From Streptomyces asoensis (GTDB lineage Bacteria; Actinomycetota; Actinomycetes; Streptomycetales; Streptomycetaceae): 64,000 nt of DNA. Positions 31,225 to 46,112 of this stretch are shown piece by piece (position 1 is the stretch's first letter; the number at the start of each line of letters is the position of its first letter). Where the stretch lies: NCBI RefSeq assembly GCF_013085465.1, contig NZ_CP049838.1:6076001-6140000 (forward strand), read 5' to 3'. A program made the position numbers and the translations under genes. The notes beneath the pieces were generated by a model, which was given only the letters and a program-made list of their open reading frames with translations, had not been told where the DNA came from and did not search any database.

Positions 31225-31247
31225 TTGTCAGTGGCGCCCCCTAGACT
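31225..31247 (+). promoter_or_regulatory. DNA-damage (PafBC-type) promoter of pcrA
   Basis: TTGTCAGTG (31225-31233), exactly 8 bases, then TAGACT (31242-31247): a full match to TTGTCRGTG-N8-TANNNT, the RecA-independent damage promoter of actinobacteria. The start of transcription would be about 31254, only a few bases before the ATG. Confidence 0.85.
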
Positions 31248-31256
31248 CGTAGAGCG

Positions 31257-33752
31257 ATGAGCAGCCTCTTTGACGACAGCTTCCTGGCGAACCTCCAGGG
31301 CCCCCGTGCCCACGAGGAGGAACCCCCGCCACCGCCCGAGGACGATCACGGACCGGAGTCGGTTCCGGACGATCTGTTCGGCGGGAAGTTCGACGTGCCC
31401 CCGGACCGGGACACCCACTACCGCGACGGCGCCCCGCGCCCTGTGCTGGACGCGGCAGCGCTCCTGGAGGGGCTGAACGACAACCAGCGCGCGGCCGTCG
31501 CCCACGCGGGCTCCCCGCTGCTCATCGTGGCCGGCGCCGGCTCCGGCAAGACGCGCGTGCTCACCCACCGCATCGCCCACCTCCTCGCCGAGCGGCACGT
31601 GCACCCGGGGCAGATCCTCGCGATCACCTTCACCAACAAGGCCGCGGGCGAGATGAAGGAGCGCGTCGAAGCGCTCGTCGGCCCGCGCGCGCACGCGATG
31701 TGGGTGATGACCTTCCACAGCTCGTGCGTGCGCATCCTGCGCCGCGAGAGCAAGAGGCTCGGCTTCACGTCGTCGTTCTCGATCTACGATGCCGCCGACT
31801 CCAAGCGGCTGATGGCCCTGGTCTGCCGCGACCTGGACCTCGACCCCAAGCGCTACCCGCCCAAGTCCTTCAGTGCCAAGATCAGCAACCTGAAGAACGA
31901 GCTGATCGACGAGGAGGACTTCGCGGCTCAGGCCGCCGACGGTTTCGAGAAGACCCTCGCCCAGGCCTACGCCATGTACCAGTCCCGGCTGCGCGAGGCG
32001 AACGCCCTCGACTTCGACGACCTGATCATGACGACGGTCAATCTGCTGCGCGCCTTCCCGGACGTCGCCGAGCACTACCGCCGCCGGTTCCGTCATGTCC
32101 TGGTCGACGAGTACCAGGACACCAACCACGCCCAGTACGCCCTCGTACGCGAGCTGGTCGGCACCTCCGAGCACCCCGTCGACGTACCCCCGGGCGAGTA
32201 CGACGTGCCGCCGGCCGAGCTCTGCGTCGTCGGTGACGCCGACCAGTCCATCTACGCCTTCCGCGGCGCGACGATCCGCAACATCCTCCAGTTCGAGGAG
32301 GACTACCCGGACGCGACGACGATCCTGCTGGAGCAGAACTACCGCTCCACGCAGACGATCCTGTCCGCCGCCAACGCCGTCATCGAGCGCAACGAGTCCC
32401 GCCGCCCCAAGAACCTGTGGACCAACGCGGGCGCGGGCGCGCGCATCACCGGCTACGTCGCCGACACCGAGCACGACGAGGCGCAGTTCGTCGCCGACGA
32501 GATAGACCGACTGACGGACGCGGGCGACGCGAAGGCGGGCGATGTCGCCGTCTTCTACCGAACCAACGCCCAGTCCCGTGTCTTCGAAGAGATCTTCATC
32601 CGAGTCGGCCTGCCCTACAAGGTCGTCGGCGGGGTCCGCTTCTACGAGCGCAAGGAGGTCCGGGACGTCCTGGCCTACCTGCGCGTGCTGGCCAACCCGG
32701 AGGACTCGGTGCCGCTGCGCCGGATCCTCAACGTGCCGAAGCGGGGCATCGGCGACCGCGCCGAGGCGATGATCGACGCCCTCTCCCAGCGGGAGAAGAT
32801 CAGCTTCCCGCAGGCCCTGAAGCGCGTCGACGAGGCGTACGGCATGGCCTCGCGGTCGACCAATGCCGTGAAGCGGTTCAACGCGCTGATGGAGGAGCTG
32901 CGCACGATCGTCGAGTCGGGCGCCGGTCCGGCGACGGTCCTGGAGGCCGTGCTCGAACGCACCGGCTACCTAGCCGAGTTGCAGGCCTCCACCGACCCGC
33001 AGGACGAGACGCGGATCGAGAACCTCCAGGAACTCGCCGCCGTCGCCCTGGAGTTCGAGCAGGAGACCGGCGAGGCGGAGGGGGACGGTACGGCGCCGGT
33101 CGGGCTCTCCGCATTCCTGGAGCGGGTCGCCCTGGTCGCCGACTCCGACCAGATCCCCGACGAGGACGACGGCTCGGGCGTCATCACCCTGATGACCCTG
33201 CACACCGCCAAGGGCCTCGAGTTCCCGGTCGTCTTCCTCACCGGCATGGAGGACGGCGTCTTCCCGCACATGCGCGCCCTCGGCCAGACCAAGGAGCTCG
33301 AGGAGGAGCGCCGCCTGGCCTACGTCGGGATCACGCGCGCGCGGGAGCGGCTCTACCTGACGCGGTCCGCGCTGCGCAGCGCCTGGGGGCAGCCGTCGTA
33401 CAACCCGCCCTCCCGGTTCCTGGAGGAGATCCCGCCGACGCATGTGGACTGGAAGCGGACGGGGGCGACCGCGCCCGTGTCCTCCGGTCCCGTCTCCGGT
33501 GTGGCGGCCTCGCTGTCCTCGTCCCGCTCACGCTCCTCGGCCGCGGGCGCGTCCGGCTTCGCGACCCGCCGGTCCGCCGACAAGCCGGTGGTCACGCTGG
33601 CCGTCGGCGACCGCGTCACCCACGACCAGTTCGGTCTCGGCACGGTCGTCGGCGTGAAGGGCACGGGCGCGAACGCGGAGGCGACGGTCGACTTCGGCGA
33701 CATCAAGCCGAAGCGTCTGCTGCTGCGGTACGCGCCGGTGGAGAAGCTGTAG
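31257..33752 (+). CDS. pcrA: ATP-dependent DNA helicase UvrD/PcrA
   Basis: An 831-residue superfamily 1A helicase, full length. Motifs in order: Q motif LNDNQRAAVAH, Walker A AGAGSGKTRVL near residue 92, TFTNKAAGEMKERV, Walker B DEYQDTN, VGDADQSIYAFRGA, EQNYRSTQ, FYRTNAQSR, TLMTLHTAKGLEFPVVFLTG, and RRLAYVGITRARERL. The C-terminal basic domain ends with a VKGTGANAEATVDFG Tudor-like segment that binds RNA polymerase in PcrA proteins. It unwinds DNA in repair and clears stalled complexes. A preceding 75-residue acidic N-terminal tail is a Streptomyces trait. The promoter fits damage induction. A perfect 20-bp terminator follows. Confidence 0.97.
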   Translation: MSSLFDDSFLANLQGPRAHEEEPPPPPEDDHGPESVPDDLFGGKFDVPPDRDTHYRDGAPRPVLDAAALLEGLNDNQRAAVAHAGSPLLIVAGAGSGKTRVLTHRIAHLLAERHVHPGQILAITFTNKAAGEMKERVEALVGPRAHAMWVMTFHSSCVRILRRESKRLGFTSSFSIYDAADSKRLMALVCRDLDLDPKRYPPKSFSAKISNLKNELIDEEDFAAQAADGFEKTLAQAYAMYQSRLREANALDFDDLIMTTVNLLRAFPDVAEHYRRRFRHVLVDEYQDTNHAQYALVRELVGTSEHPVDVPPGEYDVPPAELCVVGDADQSIYAFRGATIRNILQFEEDYPDATTILLEQNYRSTQTILSAANAVIERNESRRPKNLWTNAGAGARITGYVADTEHDEAQFVADEIDRLTDAGDAKAGDVAVFYRTNAQSRVFEEIFIRVGLPYKVVGGVRFYERKEVRDVLAYLRVLANPEDSVPLRRILNVPKRGIGDRAEAMIDALSQREKISFPQALKRVDEAYGMASRSTNAVKRFNALMEELRTIVESGAGPATVLEAVLERTGYLAELQASTDPQDETRIENLQELAAVALEFEQETGEAEGDGTAPVGLSAFLERVALVADSDQIPDEDDGSGVITLMTLHTAKGLEFPVVFLTGMEDGVFPHMRALGQTKELEEERRLAYVGITRARERLYLTRSALRSAWGQPSYNPPSRFLEEIPPTHVDWKRTGATAPVSSGPVSGVAASLSSSRSRSSAAGASGFATRRSADKPVVTLAVGDRVTHDQFGLGTVVGVKGTGANAEATVDFGDIKPKRLLLRYAPVEKL

Positions 33753-37672: not shown

Positions 37673-37742
37673 TGGGGGCTGCCGCCCCCTGACCCCCGCT
37701 TCGGCCCTGAAGGGGCCTCGTCCTCAAACGCCGGACGGGCTG
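37673..37742. repeat. Streptomyces dispersed intergenic repeat
   Basis: The sequence GGGGGCTGCCGCCCCCTGAC, continuing into CGTCCTCAAACGCCGGACGG, matches from memory a short element found between genes at many places in Streptomyces genomes. It can fold into two hairpins and lies between convergent genes, so it may act as terminator. Confidence 0.6.
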
Positions 37743-39382
37743 GTGGATGCCGGCCGGTGCGGTGAAGGCGTCCCCAGTTCCTGCGTCATCACCGCCCGCA
37801 GTCGCAGCGTCCTGCCCAGTCGTTGGAATGCCTCCGCCCAGTAGCCGCCGGCGCCCGGGGAGGCGTCTTCCGGTTCGTCCGGTACTGCCAGGAGGGCGTC
37901 GAGGCGGGTGGCCTCCCCGGGGTCGAGGCAGCGTTCTGCCAGGCCCATGACGCCGCTGAAGCTCCAGGGGTAACTGCCCGCGTCCCGTGCGATGTTGAGC
38001 GCGTCGACGACGGAACGGCCGAGCGGCGTGGCCCACGGCACGGGGCATACGCCGAGCAGTTGGAAGGCCTCCGAGAGTCCGTGGGCGGCGATGAAACCGG
38101 CGACCCACTCGGCCCGTTCGGCCACCGGAAGCGTGCCCAGCAGCTTGGCCCGTTCGGCGAGCGAGACCGCGCCCGGCCCGCCCGCGCCGGGCGCCGACGG
38201 CACCCCGAGCAGCGCACGCGACCAGTCGGCGTCGCGCTGCCGGACGGCGGCCCGGCACCAGGCCGCGTGCAGTTCGCCCAGCCAGTCGTCGGCCACCGGC
38301 AACGCCACGATCTGCTCCGGCGTACGGCCGCCCAGGCGCGCCGGCCAGGTGGCGAGCGGGGCCGCCTCCACGAGTTGGCCGAACCACCAGGACCGCTCAC
38401 CCCGGCCGGGCGGCGCCTTGGCCGACACGCCGTCGCGTTCCATGGCCGCGTCGCACTCGTGCGGGGCCTCCACGAGGAGCGTCGGTGTGTCCAGGGTGTG
38501 GTCGACGGCCACGCACGCGCCGGCCCTGACCGCCATCCGCGCGGCGAGCGCCGAACCCGGCAGCGCCGAGAGCAGCTCCGCGGCGGTGGCCCGCACGTTG
38601 CGGCTCCGGTCCGTCAGGGCCTGCTCCAGGAAGGGCTCGTCCCGCGGGCCGAGGCCGGTGCGCAGCGAGTCGAGGAACATCAGCCGGTCCTCGGCACGTT
38701 CTGTCGACCAGGACGCGGCCAGCAGTTCGCGGGCCGCGTCGGGGTCGCGGAAGCGGATCGACGCCAGGAGGGCGACCCGCTCGGCGAACAGGCCCTCCCG
38801 CCAGAGCGTTTCGGCGCGTTCGGTCTCCGCGGGACCCGGCAGCGAGGTGCCGCCGCCCGGGGTCGCGCGCAGGGCGAACCGCCAGTCGGGGTTCAGCCGG
38901 GCCAGCCACAGGGCGCGCGGTCCGGCGAACTCCAGCGCCGCCGGGCGCAGGTCCGTACGCCCGCGTGCCGCGTCGAGCAGCGCGGGGAGGGACTCGGCGG
39001 GCGCGGCGAACCCGCGGGCGTTCACCGCCGTCAGCCACTGGGGCAGCAGCTCCATGAGATCCGGTGCCGTGCCTCTGCGGCCGCCCGCGCCGGTGCCGGG
39101 GCGGTCGGCCAGCAGGAAGGCGAGCCGACGGGCCGCCGCGACGGGCAGTGCCGGACGGGGGTCCTCGGCGGTCGGCGCCGGCAGGGGGGCCGCCCGGCCC
39201 GGGCGCAGACCGGCCCGTCGGCGTACGGTCTCCGCGGCCGCCGCGTCCAACAGCGCGGCCGGCGCGGCCCGGCCGGGGGTCGCGCCCGGGGGCGTACGGC
39301 GATCCGTGCCGAGCAGGGCGGTGGTGACCAGGTCCTCCCAGGCGGGCAGCGGGGAGCGGGGTGGGGTCGGGGTGGCGTTCAT
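37724..39382 (-). CDS. DUF5691-type protein of the MoxR/SWIM cluster
   Basis: A 552-residue soluble protein, Ala/Arg/Leu-rich, with no signal or membrane segment. The N-terminus (WEDLVTTALLGTDRRTPPG) and HEAT-like helices in the middle (SRNVRATAAELLSALPGSAL) suggest a helical-repeat scaffold. From memory its family (DUF5691) co-occurs with SWIM, MoxR, DUF5682 and VWA proteins; that is the order here. AAGGGAG lies five bases before the ATG. It follows the SWIM gene by 82 bases and probably shares its damage-type promoter. Function unknown; a partner-binding role in the ATPase complex is inference. Confidence 0.75.
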   Translation of the reverse strand: MNATPTPPRSPLPAWEDLVTTALLGTDRRTPPGATPGRAAPAALLDAAAAETVRRRAGLRPGRAAPLPAPTAEDPRPALPVAAARRLAFLLADRPGTGAGGRRGTAPDLMELLPQWLTAVNARGFAAPAESLPALLDAARGRTDLRPAALEFAGPRALWLARLNPDWRFALRATPGGGTSLPGPAETERAETLWREGLFAERVALLASIRFRDPDAARELLAASWSTERAEDRLMFLDSLRTGLGPRDEPFLEQALTDRSRNVRATAAELLSALPGSALAARMAVRAGACVAVDHTLDTPTLLVEAPHECDAAMERDGVSAKAPPGRGERSWWFGQLVEAAPLATWPARLGGRTPEQIVALPVADDWLGELHAAWCRAAVRQRDADWSRALLGVPSAPGAGGPGAVSLAERAKLLGTLPVAERAEWVAGFIAAHGLSEAFQLLGVCPVPWATPLGRSVVDALNIARDAGSYPWSFSGVMGLAERCLDPGEATRLDALLAVPDEPEDASPGAGGYWAEAFQRLGRTLRLRAVMTQELGTPSPHRPASTSPSGV

Positions 39383-39464
39383 GAGACTCCCTTCTGTTGC
39401 CGTCGTCGTTGTCGTGTCGGCTGTTGTGGCTGTTGTGGCTGACGTCGCTGTTGCGGGGGGTCGT

Positions 39465-40817
39465 TCAGCACAGGCGTACCGCCTCTCCCGGGCCCGTCGG
39501 CCAGGCCGTCAGCGGGGTGAAGCCACGGTGGCCGCACTCGCCGAAGACCCGGACGGGGGCGCCGCCCGAGAGGGCGACCAGGCGCCACAGGCCAGGGCGG
39601 GAGACCGCCGCGAGCGTGAGCGGCAGCGCCGTGTCGCCCTCGGCGTCCGCCAGTTGCCAGAAGTCGCCGTCCGGGGTCGGTATGACGTTGTCCAGCGTCA
39701 CCGGGACGGAGTCCTGCCAGGGGTCGTGGCGCAGGGTTTCGCCGTAGCGGGCGGTCGCCTCGGTCGTCGTCATGCCCGGGGGACGGGTCCCGGTGAGGAC
39801 GGGTGGGGCGAACTGCTCGCCGAGGGAGACCCGTTGTTGTCCCGCGCCCGGGTGGCCGGACAGCTCGGCGTCCAGGGCGAGGCCGACGGGCAGGGTGAGC
39901 TCCGGTGCGCGGCCCGCGGCGCCGTAGGAGAGGAGGAGCGCCGTGCGGCCCGAGGCGGTGCCGTACAGCCAGATGCGGCGGGTCGTCAGTTTCGGGTCCG
40001 GCGTGTCGTACTGGGCGAGCACCAGCCAGTGGTCGCGAACCGGCGGACCCGTCGGCGAGGTCGGCAGACCCACGCGGGCGCGGACCGTCGCCGCCAGGGC
40101 GTCCGGCAGTCGCTCACGGTGCAGCCAGCCCTGGTCGAGGAGGTGGAGCAGCGCGCACTCCTCCAGCAATCGCACCGGCCAGTCCGGCCCGGACCCCGGG
40201 ACCGCCCCCAACTCCCGGACACGGGAGGCCAGTCCGGGTGCCTGCGCGTCGACCATGCGGGCCGCCGTCTCCTCCCACAGCGCATACCCCGACTGCTCGG
40301 CCGTGGCCAGGCCTGAGCGCAGGAGGTCGGCGAGCCGCTCCTCCAGTTCCGTCGCCCCCGCGGTGATCCGCTCGGCGCGCCGCTCGGCCCGGCGGCGCGC
40401 CCCCTCCGGATCGGCGGAGCCGGACCCGGAACCCGTGGCGCCCGCCTCCCGTTTCTCCTGTGCGCGCCTGCGTCCCGCGATCCACTGCTCGGCCCAGTCC
40501 GGCGCCCGCTCCGCCGGCGTGGCCCCCTCGCCGCCCGACCAGAGCAGCAGCAGCCCGAGCGCGTGCTTGCAGGGGAACTTACGGCTCGGACAGCTGCACG
40601 TGTACGCCGGGCCTGTCCCGTCCGCGGTGTCGACGACCGTCCGGTACGGCGTGCCGCCGCTGCCCTCGCACAAGCCCCATACCGCCCCCTCCCGCGAACT
40701 GCCCGTGCCCGACCACGGATCGGCCGTGCCGAGTTTGCTTCCCGCTTTGCGTGACGTGGAGTCAGGCGCCAGTGCCAGCACCTGGTCCGCCGTCCAGCGC
40801 ACCCCCTGCTGAGTCAT
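39465..40817 (-). CDS. SWIM zinc-finger protein (YehQ-like)
   Basis: A 450-residue protein with a SWIM zinc finger in the first 90 residues: YTCSCPSRKFPCKHALGLLL gives the CxC...CxH ligand set. The rest is helical with a later region LPVTLAAVSRPGLWRLVALS. SWIM fingers bind DNA or proteins in recombination-linked factors and occur in YehQ, the partner of MoxR-type YehL in E. coli. ATG at 40817 is 7 bases from a -10 (TACCTT), so the message should be leaderless. The promoter matches the damage-response motif. Divergent from the MoxR gene by 180 bases. Confidence 0.85.
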   Translation of the reverse strand: MTQQGVRWTADQVLALAPDSTSRKAGSKLGTADPWSGTGSSREGAVWGLCEGSGGTPYRTVVDTADGTGPAYTCSCPSRKFPCKHALGLLLLWSGGEGATPAERAPDWAEQWIAGRRRAQEKREAGATGSGSGSADPEGARRRAERRAERITAGATELEERLADLLRSGLATAEQSGYALWEETAARMVDAQAPGLASRVRELGAVPGSGPDWPVRLLEECALLHLLDQGWLHRERLPDALAATVRARVGLPTSPTGPPVRDHWLVLAQYDTPDPKLTTRRIWLYGTASGRTALLLSYGAAGRAPELTLPVGLALDAELSGHPGAGQQRVSLGEQFAPPVLTGTRPPGMTTTEATARYGETLRHDPWQDSVPVTLDNVIPTPDGDFWQLADAEGDTALPLTLAAVSRPGLWRLVALSGGAPVRVFGECGHRGFTPLTAWPTGPGEAVRLC

Positions 40818-40824
40818 GCCATCG

Positions 40825-40847
40825 AAGGTAGATCCCCCCACTGACAA
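40825..40847 (-). promoter_or_regulatory. PafBC-type damage promoter, SWIM/DUF5691 arm
   Basis: On the minus strand TTGTCAGTG (40839-40847), 8 bases, then TACCTT (40825-40830) match TTGTCRGTG-N8-TANNNT in full. Transcription would begin at or near the SWIM-protein ATG (leaderless). Confidence 0.8.
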
Positions 40848-40930
40848 TCGGTCCGGCGAGCGCCCGCCGGGCTGTCCGGCGGCCGCCCTGCGCGGGTGGC
40901 CGGAAGGACGTTTTCGCAGGTCGGATCGCA

Positions 40931-40953
40931 TTGTCAGTGGCGTGGTGCACGGT
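40931..40953 (+). promoter_or_regulatory. PafBC-type damage promoter, MoxR arm
   Basis: TTGTCAGTG (40931-40939), 8 bases, then CACGGT: the upstream half is perfect and the -10 deviates in its first base (C for T). With the opposite promoter it forms an inverted pair about 80 bases apart. Confidence 0.65.
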
Positions 40954-40997
40954 GGACACCAGATGCCGAACCGGCCGAGCTGGAGGGGGCCTCAGCC

Positions 40998-42140
40998 ATG
41001 TCCGTGTCCGTAGATCCGACGGCAGATCCAACGTCCGTGGAACCGAGTGGGAACGAGTCGGCGGAAGCATTGCGTCCGCACGCCGAGGACGCCTTCGCCG
41101 ACGAACTCGCCGCGCTGGCCGCGCAGGACGACCGCCCGCGCCCGGCCCGCTGGAAGCTGTCGCCGTGGGCCGTTGCCACCTATCTCCTCGGCGGTGTCCT
41201 CGCCGACGGCACGGTGATCTCGCCGAAGTACGTGGGCCCGCGCCGCATCGTCGAGGTCGCCGTGTCCACCCTCGCCACCGACCGCGCCCTACTGCTGCTC
41301 GGCGTCCCGGGCACCGCCAAGACCTGGGTCTCCGAACACCTGGCCGCGGCGGTCAGCGGTGACTCGACGCTGCTGGTGCAGGGCACCGCGGGCACACCGG
41401 AGGAGGCGATCCGCTACGGCTGGAACTACGCGCAGCTGCTCGCGCACGGGCCGAGCCGGGACGCGCTGGTGCCCAGCCCCGTCATGCGGGCCATGGCGGA
41501 GGGGGCGACGGTGCGGGTGGAGGAGCTGACCCGGATGCCGGCCGACGTGCAGGACACCCTCATCACCATTCTGTCCGAGAAGACACTGCCGATACCGGAG
41601 TTGGGGCAGGAGGTGCTGGCGGTCCGCGGGTTCAGTCTCATCGCCACGGCCAACGACCGCGACCGCGGGGTCAACGAACTGTCCAGCGCCCTGCGCCGCC
41701 GCTTCAACACGGTCGTGCTGCCGTTGCCCGAGAGCGTCGAGGCCGAGGTGGACATCGTCGCCCGGCGCGTCGACCAGATCGGCCGCTCCCTCGACCTGCC
41801 GGCCGCTCCCGACGGTATCGACGAGATCCGCCGGGTGGTGACGGTCTTCCGCGAACTGCGCGCAGGCGTCACCTCCGACGGCCGTACGAAGGTGAAGTCG
41901 CCGAGCGGCACGCTGTCCACCGCCGAGGCCATCTCCGTCGTCACCGGAGGTCTCGCACTGGCCGCGCACTTCGGCGACGGCGTGCTGCGGGCGGGGGACG
42001 TGGCCGCGGGCATCCTCGGCGCCGTCGTCCGCGATCCGGCGGCCGACCGGGTCGTCTGGCAGGAGTACCTGGAGGCGGTCGTCCGGGAACGGGCCGGCTG
42101 GACGGACTTCTACCGGGCCTGCCGGGAGGTGAGCGCGTGA
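40998..42140 (+). CDS. MoxR-family AAA+ ATPase (YehL-like)
   Basis: A 380-residue AAA+ ATPase. Walker A is GVPGTAKTW and Walker B is VRVEELTRM, with sensor 1 in LIATANDRDRGVNELSSAL and the Arg finger in RRRFN. The C-terminal lid follows. A disordered acidic N-terminus of about 50 residues precedes. MoxR proteins work as chaperones or remodelers with VWA partners that use a MIDAS metal site. ATG at 40998 has GGAGG eleven bases upstream. The stop overlaps the next small ORF by four bases, so the operon is tightly coupled. The damage-type promoter lies 45 bases upstream of the ATG. Confidence 0.92.
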   Translation: MSVSVDPTADPTSVEPSGNESAEALRPHAEDAFADELAALAAQDDRPRPARWKLSPWAVATYLLGGVLADGTVISPKYVGPRRIVEVAVSTLATDRALLLLGVPGTAKTWVSEHLAAAVSGDSTLLVQGTAGTPEEAIRYGWNYAQLLAHGPSRDALVPSPVMRAMAEGATVRVEELTRMPADVQDTLITILSEKTLPIPELGQEVLAVRGFSLIATANDRDRGVNELSSALRRRFNTVVLPLPESVEAEVDIVARRVDQIGRSLDLPAAPDGIDEIRRVVTVFRELRAGVTSDGRTKVKSPSGTLSTAEAISVVTGGLALAAHFGDGVLRAGDVAAGILGAVVRDPAADRVVWQEYLEAVVRERAGWTDFYRACREVSA

Positions 42141-42256
42141 ACGGGAGCGACGCAAGCAAGGGGAACGAGGAGATTCGGGCGTGGGCCCGCGGAGCGTGGA
42201 GGGTGGCTGTGGACGACGACACGAGGTGGCCCCGCAGGCGTGAGGCCAGGGGATGA
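42137..42256 (+). CDS. 39-residue bridging ORF between MoxR and DUF5682 genes
   Basis: GTG at 42137 overlaps the MoxR stop (GTGA), and its TGA overlaps the ATG of the next gene (ATGA), so the frame links the two exactly. GGGAGG lies seven bases before the GTG. The peptide is charged and Trp-rich: MNGSDASKGNEEIRAWARGA, then WRVAVDDDTRWPRRREARG. It may be a genuine small protein or only a ribosome-coupling device; conservation across species would decide. It is too short for common gene callers. Confidence 0.5.
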   Translation: MNGSDASKGNEEIRAWARGAWRVAVDDDTRWPRRREARG

Positions 42257-44943
42257 CGGGCGTCGCGGAGGGCGGCGGCCAGGGCGCGGGGGCGGGCCGG
42301 CCGTTGCTGCTCGGGGTGCGTCACCACGGGCCGGGGTCGGCGCGGGCGGTACGGGCGGCGCTGGACGCCGCCCGGCCCCGGACCGTACTGGTCGAGGGGC
42401 CGCCCGAGGCCGACGCGCTGATCCCGCTCGCCGCCGACGAGGACATGCGGCCGCCGGTCGCGCTGCTCGCCCACGCCGTCGACGAACCCGGCCGTTCGGC
42501 CTTCTGGCCGCTGGCCGAGTTCTCCCCGGAATGGGTCGCCCTCCGGTGGGCCCTGGAGCACGGCGTCCCCGCCCGCTTCATCGACCTCCCGGCCACGCAC
42601 ACACTGGCCTGGGAGAAGGAGGGCCAGAAGGAGGGGCCGCGACCCGAGGGACAGAACGAGGGCGAGAGCGGGGGCGGGAACGGGGGCGGGAACGGGGGCG
42701 GGAACGGGGGCACGAGCGGGGAGGACGCGCCCGGCTTCGGGGAGGGGGTGCGGGGAGACCCGCTCGGGCGGCTCGCCGCGGTCGCCGGGTACGACGATCC
42801 CGAGCGCTGGTGGGAGGACGTCGTCGAGCACCGGTCGACGGGGGCGAAGGACCCGTTCGCGCCGTTCGCCGCGCTCGAGGAGGCCATGGGGGCACTGCGG
42901 GAGGCGGGCGCAACCGAAGCGGGAGGGAACGGCGACGACCGGGAACTCGCGCGGGAGGCGTACATGCGCATCCAAGTGCGGGCGGCGCAAAGGGAGTTCG
43001 GATCGGACGGGGTGGCCGTGGTGTGCGGGGCGTGGCATGTGCCCGCGCTGCGCCGGAAGGTCGCCGTCGCCGCCGACCGCGCGTTGCTCAAGGGGCTGCC
43101 CAAGGTCAGGGTCGACCTGACCTGGGTGCCGTGGACCCACCGCAGACTGGCCCGCGCCGGGGGGTACGGCGCCGGTATCGACTCGCCGGGCTGGTACGCC
43201 CACCTGTTCGGTGCGCCGGACCGGCCGGTCGAGCGCTGGCTGACGAAGGTGGCGGTCCTGCTGCGCGCGGAGGACCGGGTCGTGTCCTCGGCGCATGTCA
43301 TCGAGGCGGTCCGGCTGGCCGAGACGCTCGCCGCGCTGCGCGGGCGGCCGCTGCCCGGTCTGAGCGAGACGACCGACGCCGTGCGCGCGGTGCTGTGCGA
43401 GGGCTCGGACGTTCCGTTGGCGCTGGTCCGCGACCGGCTGGTGGTCGGGGACGTCCTGGGGGAGGTGCCGGCCGGCGCGCCCGCCGTGCCGCTGGAGCGG
43501 GACCTCGACCGAGTTCAGCGCCGACTGCGGCTCAAGCCGGAGGCGGACGCACGCGAGTTGGCGCTCGACCTGCGCAAGGAGAACGACGCCGAGCGCAGCA
43601 GGCTCCTGCACCGGCTGCGGCTGCTGCGTATCGAGTGGGGCGATCCGGTCGCCTCGCCCGGCAGCACGGGGACGTTCCGGGAGACGTGGCGGCTGCGGTG
43701 GGAGCCGGAGCTGTCGGTGCGGACCGCCGAGGCCGGGGTGTGGGGGACGACCGTGCTCGCCGCGGCCACCGCCAAGGCGGAAGCGGACGCCGTCGCCGCG
43801 CGGGGCCTCGCCGAGGTGACCGGGCTCGCCGAGCGCTGCCTCCTGGCCGGGTTGCCGGACGCGCTTCCGACGGTGATGCGGGTCCTCGCCGACCGGGCGG
43901 CCCTCGACGCGGATGTCGGCCACCTCGCCCAGGCCCTGCCCGCGCTGGTCCGTTCGCTCCGCTACGGCGACGTACGCGGCACCGACACCGGTGCGCTGGC
44001 GGAGGTGGCCGCGGGCCTCGCCGAACGGGTCTTCGTCGGCCTCCCCCCGGCCTGCGCCTCGCTGGACGCGGACGCGGCGGACGAGATGCGGCGCCATGTG
44101 GACGCGGTGCACGGAGCGGTGGGGATGCTGGAGGAGACGGCGACGGCCCCGGGGCGGACCGGCGCACCGGCCGGGCCGGCGGCGGGGCCGGCGGCCGGGG
44201 CAGGGGCCGGGCCGGCAGCCGGGCCGGCGGAGGGGACGCCGGCCGGGGCGGCGGGGGGCCGCGCCGGGGCCGTGGAGACGGGCGGGGGCGGGGAACCGGC
44301 GGGTGCCTCCACAGCGGACGGCCGGGGCCTCGGCGGTGAGCTCCGCTCGGGCCACGGCGGTCTGCGGGCGCGCTGGCGGAGGGTGCTGCGGGTGCTCTCC
44401 GGGCGGGACACCGTGCCGGGGGTGATCAGAGGGCGGGCCGTGCGGCTGCTCCTGGACGAGGGGGAGTTGGACCAGGACGAGGCGGCGCGGCTCATGGGGC
44501 TCGCCCTGTCACCGGGGACACCGCCGGCGGACGCGGCCGCCTGGATCGAGGGCTTCGTCGGGGGCGGCTCCGGGGGCGGACTGCTCCTCCTGCACGACGA
44601 ACGGCTGCTCGGGCTGGTCGACGGATGGCTCACGGCGGTGCCGGCGGACGCGTTCACGGACGTACTGCCGTTGCTGCGGCGGACGTTCTCGGCGTACGAA
44701 CCGGGCGTGCGCAGAACGCTCGGCGAGCTGGTCCGGCGCGGCCTGGGGAAACGGGCCGGCGGACCGGGCACGGACTTCGGGACACCCGGGTTCGCGGCAG
44801 CGCTCGACGAGGTGCGCGCGGACGCCGTCCTGCCGGTGGTGCGGTTGCTGCTGGGCCTGGGCCTGGGCCTGGGACCGGAACCGGGGCCGGGGCCGGATCC
44901 TGGCATGGCCGACGACAACGAGTTTGCGGGGGTGGGTACATGA
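42253..44943 (+). CDS. DUF5682-family protein (YehM-like)
   Basis: An 896-residue soluble protein that matches, from memory, the DUF5682 family found beside MoxR and VWA genes. The N-terminus (LLLGVRHHGPGSARAVRAAL) with a conserved VLVEGPPEAD and VVCGAWHVPALR resembles the TraB/PrgY erythromycin-esterase-like fold, with His and Glu residues that could bind metal. A Gly/Asn insert of tandem GGGN units (42661-42720) and an Ala/Gly/Pro stretch (44160-44290) are low-complexity expansions. The last 250 residues are helical. It overlaps the VWA start by four bases. No activity is established; a partner in the MoxR/VWA complex is the best inference. Confidence 0.8.
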   Translation: MTGVAEGGGQGAGAGRPLLLGVRHHGPGSARAVRAALDAARPRTVLVEGPPEADALIPLAADEDMRPPVALLAHAVDEPGRSAFWPLAEFSPEWVALRWALEHGVPARFIDLPATHTLAWEKEGQKEGPRPEGQNEGESGGGNGGGNGGGNGGTSGEDAPGFGEGVRGDPLGRLAAVAGYDDPERWWEDVVEHRSTGAKDPFAPFAALEEAMGALREAGATEAGGNGDDRELAREAYMRIQVRAAQREFGSDGVAVVCGAWHVPALRRKVAVAADRALLKGLPKVRVDLTWVPWTHRRLARAGGYGAGIDSPGWYAHLFGAPDRPVERWLTKVAVLLRAEDRVVSSAHVIEAVRLAETLAALRGRPLPGLSETTDAVRAVLCEGSDVPLALVRDRLVVGDVLGEVPAGAPAVPLERDLDRVQRRLRLKPEADARELALDLRKENDAERSRLLHRLRLLRIEWGDPVASPGSTGTFRETWRLRWEPELSVRTAEAGVWGTTVLAAATAKAEADAVAARGLAEVTGLAERCLLAGLPDALPTVMRVLADRAALDADVGHLAQALPALVRSLRYGDVRGTDTGALAEVAAGLAERVFVGLPPACASLDADAADEMRRHVDAVHGAVGMLEETATAPGRTGAPAGPAAGPAAGAGAGPAAGPAEGTPAGAAGGRAGAVETGGGGEPAGASTADGRGLGGELRSGHGGLRARWRRVLRVLSGRDTVPGVIRGRAVRLLLDEGELDQDEAARLMGLALSPGTPPADAAAWIEGFVGGGSGGGLLLLHDERLLGLVDGWLTAVPADAFTDVLPLLRRTFSAYEPGVRRTLGELVRRGLGKRAGGPGTDFGTPGFAAALDEVRADAVLPVVRLLLGLGLGLGPEPGPGPDPGMADDNEFAGVGT

Positions 44944-46112
44944 CGACGGCCGACGCGGCGACGACCGAGGCCGGGCAGGAGCGGCTGCGGCGCTGGCGGC
45001 TGGTGCTCGGGGGCGACACGGCCGACGGCACCGGCCACGGGCTCTCCGGGCGGGACGCCGAGATGGACGGGGCGCTCGCCGCGCTCTACGGGAAGGAGAG
45101 CGGGGCGCGGACGGGGCGGGACCGCTCGGCGGGGCTCGGGGCCTCGGCGCCGTCGGTGGCCCGCTGGCTCGGGGACATCCGCACGTACTTCCCCTCCTCC
45201 GTCGTACAGGTCATGCAGCGCGACGCGATCGACCGGCTGGGGCTGTCCGCGCTGCTGCTGGAACCGGAGATGCTGGAGGCGGTGGAGGCCGACGTGCATC
45301 TCGTCGGCACGCTGCTCTCGCTGAACAAGGCGATGCCGGAGACGACGAGGGAGACGGCACGGGGCGTGGTCCGCAAGGTCGTCGAGGACCTGGAGAAACG
45401 GCTCGCCACCCGCACCCGGGCCGCCCTCACCGGCGCCCTCGACCGCGGCACGCGCGTCCACCGTCCGCGCCATCACGACATCGACTGGAACCGCACGATC
45501 GCCGTCAACCTCAAGCACTACCTGCCCGAGTACGGGACGGTCGTGCCGGAGCGGCTCGTCGGGTACGGGCGGGCGTCGCGGTCCGTCAAGAAGGAGGTGA
45601 TCCTCTGCATCGACCAGTCGGGATCGATGGCGTCGTCGGTGGTGTACGCGTCGGTCTTCGGGGCGGTACTGGCGTCGATGCGGTCGATCAGCACACGGCT
45701 CGTCGTCTTCGACACGGCGGTCGCCGATCTCACCGACCTGCTCGACGACCCGGTGGACGTCCTGTTCGGCACCCGGCTCGGCGGCGGCACGGACATCAAC
45801 CGGGCGCTCGCGTACTGCCAGACGCAGATCACCCGGCCCGCCGAGACGGTGGTGGTGCTCATCAGCGACCTGTACGAGGGAGGTATACGGGACGAGATGC
45901 TCAAGCGCGTCGCGGCGATGAAGGCGTCCGGCGTGCAGTTCGTCGCGCTGCTCGCGCTGTCGGACGAGGGGGCGCCCGCCTACGACCGGGAGCACGCGGC
46001 GGCGCTCGCGGCGCTGGGCGCACCGGCGTTCGCCTGCACGCCCGATCTGTTCCCGGACGTCATGGCGGCGGCGATCGAGAAGCGTCCGCTGCCCGTGCCG
46101 GACACCGCCTGA
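44940..46112 (+). CDS. VWA-domain protein (YehP-like)
   Basis: A 390-residue protein. The N-terminal 200 residues are helical; the C-terminal von Willebrand factor A domain has a complete MIDAS: DQSGSM near residue 223, a Thr in GGGTDIN and the distal Asp in VLISDLYEGG. This pairs with the MoxR ATPase in the same operon, as in YehL/YehP and other MoxR-VWA systems, where the ATPase remodels a VWA-bound client. ATGA overlap with the DUF5682 gene. The stop at 46112 is followed by 64 bases and a TTG-start secreted gene that may lie in the same transcript. Confidence 0.92.
   Translation: MTTADAATTEAGQERLRRWRLVLGGDTADGTGHGLSGRDAEMDGALAALYGKESGARTGRDRSAGLGASAPSVARWLGDIRTYFPSSVVQVMQRDAIDRLGLSALLLEPEMLEAVEADVHLVGTLLSLNKAMPETTRETARGVVRKVVEDLEKRLATRTRAALTGALDRGTRVHRPRHHDIDWNRTIAVNLKHYLPEYGTVVPERLVGYGRASRSVKKEVILCIDQSGSMASSVVYASVFGAVLASMRSISTRLVVFDTAVADLTDLLDDPVDVLFGTRLGGGTDINRALAYCQTQITRPAETVVVLISDLYEGGIRDEMLKRVAAMKASGVQFVALLALSDEGAPAYDREHAAALAALGAPAFACTPDLFPDVMAAAIEKRPLPVPDTA

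Follow-up and report, generated by a model that had tools for sequence, protein, structure and literature searches.

A divergent MoxR–VWA gene cluster of Streptomyces with conserved PafBC-type promoter motifs and a probably TIKI-like DUF5682 partner

The window analyzed here, 64,000 nucleotides in all, corresponds to bases 6,076,001–6,140,000 of a single-contig 10.04 Mb chromosome that, judging by its closest proteins, is from a Streptomyces. It includes a cluster of five genes in two divergent arms, with SWIM and DUF5691 genes running leftwards and MoxR, DUF5682, and VWA genes running rightwards, and Pfam matches and refined starts place all five where an initial annotation had located them. 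The SWIM and MoxR start codons are separated by exactly 180 bases, again as annotated. On the minus strand, the SWIM zinc-finger gene (39465–40817) encodes 450 residues including CSCPSRKFPCKH, read against the SWIM consensus (PF04434, E = 3.4e-6), and the second gene of this arm, DUF5691 (37724–39382), encodes 552 residues (PF18944, E = 2e-174) with a weak HEAT-repeat signal below the Pfam cut-off (E = 0.018). On the plus strand, a MoxR AAA+ ATPase of the YehL type (40998–42140, refined start ATG at 40998, 380 residues; AAA_5, E = 1.1e-36) carries the Walker A motif GVPGTAKT and the Walker B motif VEELTR, which are kept in 74/75 and 75/75 relatives, respectively; the counterparts in Escherichia coli YehL are GEPGTAKS and FEEITR, with the Glu-Glu Walker B common to both. 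Next come a DUF5682 protein of the YehM type (42253–44943, 896 residues; PF18934, E = 1.1e-298) and a VWA protein of the CoxE/YehP type (44940–46112, 390 residues; VWA_CoxE, E = 3.3e-59), whose refined start (ATG at 44940) overlaps the DUF5682 stop by 4 nucleotides, the commonest single spacing among relatives. The metal-ion-dependent adhesion site (MIDAS) of the VWA protein is intact, as the initial annotation had stated (DQSGS, GGTD, and SDLYEGG), and its DxSGS motif recurs in 57 of 62 relatives. One proposed member was dropped: the 39-codon frame at 42137–42256 does not look like a gene because the gap between MoxR and DUF5682 varies across 69 relatives, its commonest value being a 4-nucleotide overlap.

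Two promoter motifs of the RecA-NDp/PafBC type, scored against the consensus TTGTCRGTG-N8-TANNNT, lie between the arms, matching the pair described in the initial annotation. The motif facing SWIM (40825–40847, minus strand; TTGTCAGTG-N8-TACCTT) is exact, while the one facing MoxR (40931–40953, plus strand; TTGTCAGTG-N8-CACGGT) has a single mismatch, its −10 starting with C instead of T, and was also scored in the variant form TTGTCRGTG-N8-CANNNT. Since the refined SWIM start codon (ATG at 40817) lies only 7 nucleotides past the −10, with a similar spacing in many relatives, the SWIM mRNA is probably leaderless. Across the window, five motif matches with ≤2 mismatches were found against 1.30 expected, five being reached in 1 of 100 shuffles, and a chance motif is rejected by the genome-wide reversed control, permuted motifs, within-operon controls, and conservation footprint given below. 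Control of the promoters by LexA was also rejected: scored with known LexA consensus forms, the window includes no GAACN4GTTC box, and only 3-mismatch sites occur near the promoters. Elsewhere in the window, another exact RecA-NDp/PafBC-type motif (31225–31247, plus strand) stands 9 nucleotides ahead of the start of a pcrA/uvrD helicase gene (31257–33752).

Genome-wide, the exact consensus occurs at 32 sites and the reversed pattern at none. Repair-type genes stand behind 12 of these sites, namely uracil-DNA glycosylase, a frame with RuvA, a HelY-like DEAD helicase, a RecD2-like helicase, UvrA, UvrB, methylguanine methyltransferase, rpsF (behind which, reading the frame by eye, we take ssb to lie), UvrD/PcrA, the beta-clamp (DnaN) family, RecA, and a DinG-like helicase, the names DinG and HelY being our presumptive labels. 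Genes at the other sites are of different or no known kind in Pfam, the scan covering the frames at 26 sites plus SWIM, with L009, L016, L020, L022, and L040 left out. At ten sites (L014, L018, L019, L023, L026, L027, L028, L032, L033, and L034) the longest frame can begin 4–10 nucleotides past the −10. Several individual sites deserve mention in their own right. The beta-clamp gene at L030 (G000 C1:6234083) has its exact motif 31 nucleotides ahead of the first possible start, and an adjoining sigma-factor gene has its own exact site (L029, 6232788). L009 and L040 (G000 C1:3976 and 10040303) lie in identical sequence, one close to each end of the linear chromosome, and no clear gene follows them. 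L039 (G000 C1:9392077) precedes a WGR-domain beta-propeller protein; WGR domains occur in eukaryotic DNA-damage proteins, and this protein may be another adaptor of the damage response. Four other Streptomyces genomes have 26–40 exact sites each (control, 0), and genomes of the Streptosporangiaceae (f17) merely 0–7 in all. The 63 sites of genome G154 (f19) are doubtful as a regulon because 32 of them are one identical 23-mer, TTGTCGGTGCCCGCCCGTAGGGT, which is probably a dispersed repeat.

About 3.5 kb from the HelY-like gene, adjacent genes encode PafB and PafC, both of which match solved chains of these proteins. Published work describes RecA-NDp as the motif of PafBC (PMC5656591; PMC8223512; PMC6789036), and S. 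coelicolor SCO6735, which has a RecA-NDp-type promoter, was induced five-fold by ultraviolet light (PMC5087735). It could be argued that another activator, either a different WYL-domain protein or ClgR, uses these motifs instead of PafBC, as the genome holds nine WYL-domain matches and ClgR is reported to recognize such promoters in Mycobacterium smegmatis (PMC5656591). We consider this very unlikely given the presence of the motif at recA, uvrA, uvrB, and the HelY-like gene, the proximity of the PafB/PafC pair to the latter, and the attribution of RecA-NDp to PafBC in two of these papers (PMC8223512; PMC6789036).

We then evaluated the motifs in relatives. For 39 of 40 Streptomyces genomes (G234, with only a type 2 match near the top, was left out), the SWIM-facing motif was exact in 35 and had one mismatch in two, the remaining two rows being a spurious match in G163, whose locus L060 has an exact motif, and a cut contig in G199; the MoxR-facing motif had one mismatch to the TA consensus in 36 genomes and two in three. 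In a named Streptomycetaceae set of 80 loci including S. griseus, S. coelicoflavus, Kitasatospora, Streptacidiphilus, and Actinacidiphila, the start could not be scored at 7 loci for SWIM and 2 for MoxR. The SWIM-facing motif was exact at 66, one off at 6, and two off at 1 of the 73 scorable loci (72/73 with ≤1 mismatch), and the MoxR-facing CA form was exact at 75, one off at 2, and two off at 1 of 78. A column-conservation footprint drew on 123 loci, with 119 (SWIM) and 62 (MoxR) having exactly one anchored match and enough flank: core columns outside the anchor were 98% and 99% conserved, respectively, compared to 70% and 90% for the spacer and 50% and 48% for the 28 nucleotides upstream of the motif.

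In the Streptosporangiaceae, SWIM, DUF5691, MoxR, DUF5682, and VWA all run in one direction. There, the SWIM motif was exact at 7, one off at 8, two off at 8, and worse at 4 of 27 scored loci (23/27 with ≤2 mismatches), and the motif was absent at MoxR but for one-off matches about 230 nucleotides upstream in 2 of 25 (L100 and L103). Contiguous genes thus have one motif and split genes two, since this family has one before SWIM and Streptomycetaceae have one on both arms. A family-level test within a 70-base frame scored 44 type 1 loci (7 from Streptomyces), omitting loci that lacked upstream sequence or whose tblastn match fell short of the first residues (15 SWIM/DUF4132, 40 MoxR); a planned DUF5691 control had n = 0. 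The motif was exact at 14, within one mismatch at 23, and within two at 31 loci, while 100 permuted motifs at the same loci gave means of 0.00, 0.02, and 0.16 and maxima of 0, 2, and 6. As a within-operon control, the motif was sought ahead of DUF5682 and VWA and found at 0/106 and 0/102 loci. Two sites from f4, a family we guess to be the Nocardia group, fell outside the frame and were not counted (L101, one mismatch, upstream of SWIM; L126, two mismatches, at −67). At recA (n = 14 loci), f17 showed forms such as TTGTCGTAG-N8-TAGCGT, f18 showed CTGTCGGAC-N8-TAACGT, and three f4 loci were exact; SWIM sites of f17 and f18 retain TGTC and deviate further on, in a pattern that differs from recA genome by genome, and some of the misses look like drift. 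In three f17 genomes (L292, L293, and L294, from G338, G171, and G110), the recA matches were broken into pieces along a single long frame, the pattern that intein insertions would give. Conservation ahead of the orthologous arms, by which the initial annotation had proposed to judge its promoter claim, is therefore seen in Streptomycetaceae and Streptosporangiaceae, but is weak in f4 (1/3) and fails in f18 (0/6 with ≤2 mismatches). The family-level pattern combined with the gene rearrangement is a stronger argument than locus counts, and overall, these comparative data strongly support the regulatory half of the damage-promoter reading.

The same motif accompanies clusters of other builds. 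A second cluster in the same genome (L127) comprises DUF4132, a protein of about 1,700 residues, MoxR, and a DUF5682 fused to VWA; its DUF4132 gene stands behind one of the 32 exact sites, and the ~1,700-residue protein between DUF4132 and MoxR (L127:2481–7607) had no Pfam match that reached the cut-off. Among 22 type 2 loci, the motif lay ≤150 bases ahead of DUF4132 in exact form at 12 and with ≤2 mismatches at 17, all from Streptomyces. The eight type 3 loci have the E. coli order DUF4132-MoxR-DUF5682-VWA-SWIM: in 3/3 from Streptomyces an exact motif begins 78 bases ahead of the first possible DUF4132 start, L149 has a one-off site 106 bases before the DUF4132 frame, and the one-off site of L147 lies 203 bases inside the longest frame. 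Three differently built clusters tied to one damage-type promoter would provide a physiological context for this family.

DUF5682 was detected in 105 of 394 genomes of the class and in 284 of 295 Streptomyces genomes, and at the 80 named loci a methylmalonyl-CoA mutase C-terminal domain gene (70) and sucC (72) are kept as neighbors. Because of this prevalence and these shared neighbors, the cluster is, by genome comparison, part of the core genome and not a mobile island. This distribution bears on the possibility, also raised in the initial annotation, of a defense role, i.e., an anti-phage or conflict system akin to the MoxR-vWA ternary systems (Kaur et al. 2020, PMC7159879) and armed by damage signals. 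MoxR and VWA components, a weak bpMoxR match (E = 5.6e-5, 22.7 bits against a cut-off of 27), and the effector proteins found among those of similar predicted fold to DUF5682 would fit such a system. However, none of the eight proteins searched matched a PADLOC model at E ≤ 0.01, which rejects a known defense system, Pfam results for the five cluster proteins include no VMAP, iSTAND, FtsH, or beta-propeller partner, and near-universal presence beside the same neighbors is unlike the patchy occurrence of defense islands. A conflict system thus appears most unlikely.

The DUF5682 gene is almost certainly the ortholog of S. coelicolor SCO4804, judging by size, mass, and gene spacing. We take SCO4797 to be pcrA and SCO4808 to be sucC. 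Five relatives (L299–L303), which likeness to S. coelicoflavus suggests are close to S. coelicolor, encode DUF5682 proteins of 814–815 residues and 85.6–86.2 kDa, 88–90% identical, or nearly so, to that of S. coelicoflavus, and all five have both motifs. In L299, the DUF5682 protein (815 residues, 86.12 kDa) starts 102 nucleotides after MoxR, and one of several candidate VWA starts lies 170 nucleotides downstream; SCO4804 has 815 residues, 86.04 kDa, and flanking gaps of 103 and 171 bp (Gongerowska-Jac et al. 2021, PMC8120823). The claim that the cluster was not previously described thus holds only in part, as SCO4804 was published in 2021 as a hypothetical protein and indirect activator of topA (PMC8120823), but the accessible text of that paper makes no mention of its family, fold, partners, or promoter motif.

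These published data suggest another explanation, in which the genes respond to DNA topology itself, SCO4804 raises topA transcription for supercoiling homeostasis, and damage is secondary. Consistent with it, a Tn5 insertion in sco4804 lowered topA promoter activity, TopA level, and sco4805 transcripts, overexpression raised topA promoter activity and, briefly, topA and gyrB transcripts, and TopA depletion raised sco4804 and adjacent genes eightfold (PMC8120823). Yet SCO4804 bound neither the topA promoter specifically nor TopA, and its overexpression left plasmid supercoiling unchanged (PMC8120823). Moreover, because recA, recX, uvrA, and dnaE2 also rise on TopA depletion, an effect its authors link to LexA (PMC6637917), the response can be read as damage signaling, and since single-stranded DNA activates PafBC (PMC11804915), a PafBC account of the rise of the cluster would be a natural one. 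The motif accounts for co-regulation with repair genes, which topology alone does not, and we therefore regard supercoiling homeostasis as an unlikely primary function. Our findings offer a second reading of both the SCO4804–topA and the TopA-depletion results.

Two models of DUF5682 (mean predicted local distance difference test scores of 79.0 and 77.3) suggest a TIKI-like N-terminal domain at about residues 15–300 and an alpha-solenoid C-terminal part at about residues 450–870, so that the protein is probably a TIKI-type hydrolase-like domain on an alpha-solenoid. H24, E48, R234, and H262 are invariant in 76 aligned sequences; TIKI proteins carry a GX2H motif pair. The TraB model matched 1 of 26 members (E = 0.0095) and the ChaN model likewise 1 of 26 (E = 0.21), and the two families are nearly absent from the class (0/118 genomes in one count and 1/148 in another). 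Sequence comparisons did not prove the TIKI link: the comparison with E. coli YbaP gave a probability of 0.7%, and a PDB profile search returned nothing relevant. If DUF5682 is an enzyme, the MoxR–VWA pair might serve for its maturation, inserting a metal or cofactor into what would be the sole damage-response enzyme, much as in NorQD or CoxDE. The VWA protein does belong to the CoxE family, MoxR, VWA, and one enzyme-like protein adjoin, the DUF5682 and VWA genes overlap by 4 nucleotides, and NorQD sets a precedent for metal insertion in the accessible literature; nevertheless, TIKI relatives include the metal-independent enzyme RRSP, as described there, and SWIM and DUF5691 are left unexplained. 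We hold a pure maturation role to be rather doubtful.

Taken together, we lean toward a PafBC-induced MoxR–VWA machine that acts on or through a TIKI-like DUF5682 protein at damaged or over-supercoiled DNA. On this view, the core-genome cluster would belong to the LexA-independent DNA-damage regulon governed by PafBC. Gene content, the motifs and their conservation, the presence of PafBC, a predicted fold, and conserved residues are observed here; control by PafBC, formation of a complex, its activity, and its target are what we infer. Single-stranded DNA would activate PafBC, leading by sigma adaptation at both motifs to joint expression of both arms. A MoxR ring, bound to the VWA protein in a putative complex, would hydrolyze ATP, and the VWA protein would couple the ring through its MIDAS to a client or effector, namely the hydrolase-like domain of DUF5682 on its alpha-solenoid. 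SWIM and DUF5691, or DUF4132 proteins in other cluster types, may serve as adaptors that link the machine to DNA or nucleoprotein. Its task would probably be the ATP-driven remodeling or cleavage of a protein trapped on DNA that is damaged or hyper-negatively supercoiled, and the topA effect of SCO4804 would then be indirect. A bolder version, which we put forward only tentatively and at less than even weight, is that the actinobacterial core PafBC response includes an ATP-gated hydrolase machine, in which DUF5682, as a peptidase or esterase of the TIKI superfamily, is brought to damaged nucleoprotein by adaptors (SWIM, DUF5691, or DUF4132) and the MoxR–VWA motor loads, activates, or threads substrates to it.

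Several observations weigh against this PafBC-induced machine. On the regulatory side, induction of the cluster genes by a DNA-damaging agent was not seen in any source, and, according to a 2022 paper on S. venezuelae, a first search suggested that the PafBC motif of mycobacteria is not conserved in that species (PMC9380542). The MoxR-facing −10 is off consensus in 39/39 Streptomyces genomes, always by C for T at its start, and the motif has >2 mismatches at 6/6 loci of f18, 1/1 of f26, 2/3 of f4, and 4/27 of Streptosporangiaceae. Type 2 loci outside Streptomyces have it within two mismatches in 0 of 5 cases, and among type 3 loci L125 has no site, L124 only a two-off site inside the frame, and L146 an exact site that lies 2.2 kb upstream. 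The scored loci are related, so that their counts are not independent trials. No LexA-type box was detected at E. coli yeh, and a LexA site there is rejected: 22 kb held no exact CTGTN8ACAG, and none with ≤1 mismatch occurred upstream of yehI or yehL. For the protein itself, Foldseek returned no PDB match at E ≤ 0.001 for DUF5682, the full model being without a significant match, the EreA-type profile comparison was weak (hhalign score 22.4, equalled in 1 of 60 shuffles), and purified SCO4804 showed only non-specific DNA binding and no binding to TopA (PMC8120823).

If correct, the ATP-gated machine would join LexA cleavage and the Pup-proteasome as a third kind of device that links protein processing to damage, with E. 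coli yehLMPQ as its relative. More broadly, these results suggest that an ATP-driven component of the bacterial DNA-damage response has been overlooked, bear on yehLMPQ and DUF5682, which are widespread and unexplained, and support a PafBC regulon in Streptomyces, a question left open in the accessible text of the 2022 paper (PMC9380542). The kinds of part are already known; what is new is their combination with damage-type control and a TIKI-like partner. The words DUF5682 and DUF5691 were not found in the literature searched, a scope that excludes subscription papers and supplements, and searches for DUF4132/yeh, MoxR/SWIM/VWA/yehL, and PafBC plus Streptomyces gave no paper on the cluster by title or start of abstract among the matches listed; the SCO4804 paper could be reached by locus number only.

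Compared to known systems, the cluster shares motif and spacing with the RecA-NDp/PafBC regulon, the same motif preceding recA, uvrA, and uvrB in this genome, and differs in the CANNNT −10 of its MoxR arm; MoxR, DUF5682, and DUF5691 genes were not found named as members of that regulon in the accessible literature. DUF5682 probably resembles the TIKI superfamily (TIKI, TraB, EreC, BcR135, ChaN, HopBA1, and RRSP) in predicted fold, with sequence similarity below usual thresholds, but differs in its fusion to a long alpha-solenoid and its link to a MoxR–VWA pair. R234 lies 28 residues before H262, as R4001 lies 29 before H4030 in RRSP, and no counterpart of the RRSP residue E3900, as given in the accessible text, was recognized. 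NorQD, CoxDE, CbbQO, and RavA-ViaA show the same pairing of a MoxR AAA+ protein with a MIDAS-bearing VWA protein, and the window pair has both Walker motifs and the MIDAS, with a weak NCBIfam ViaA match below cut-off (E = 0.00081); the cluster differs from all four in its DUF5682 neighbor, its additional SWIM and DUF5691 proteins, and its PafBC-type motif. With E. coli yehI-yehKLMPQ it shares MoxR (YehL, by annotation), DUF5682 (YehM, E = 2.4e-98), VWA_CoxE (YehP, E = 2.3e-72), and SWIM (YehQ, E = 1.2e-7), and like yehLMPQ it encodes these four kinds of protein together. The kinship to yehLMPQ noted in the initial annotation is thus closer than first stated, because YehM is itself a DUF5682 protein. 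The E. coli genes, in the order yehI-yehK-yehL-yehM-yehP-yehQ with the DUF4132 gene yehI upstream, run in one direction with SWIM last and include no DUF5691 among the four yeh proteins scanned, whereas the window cluster forms two divergent arms with two PafBC-type motifs.

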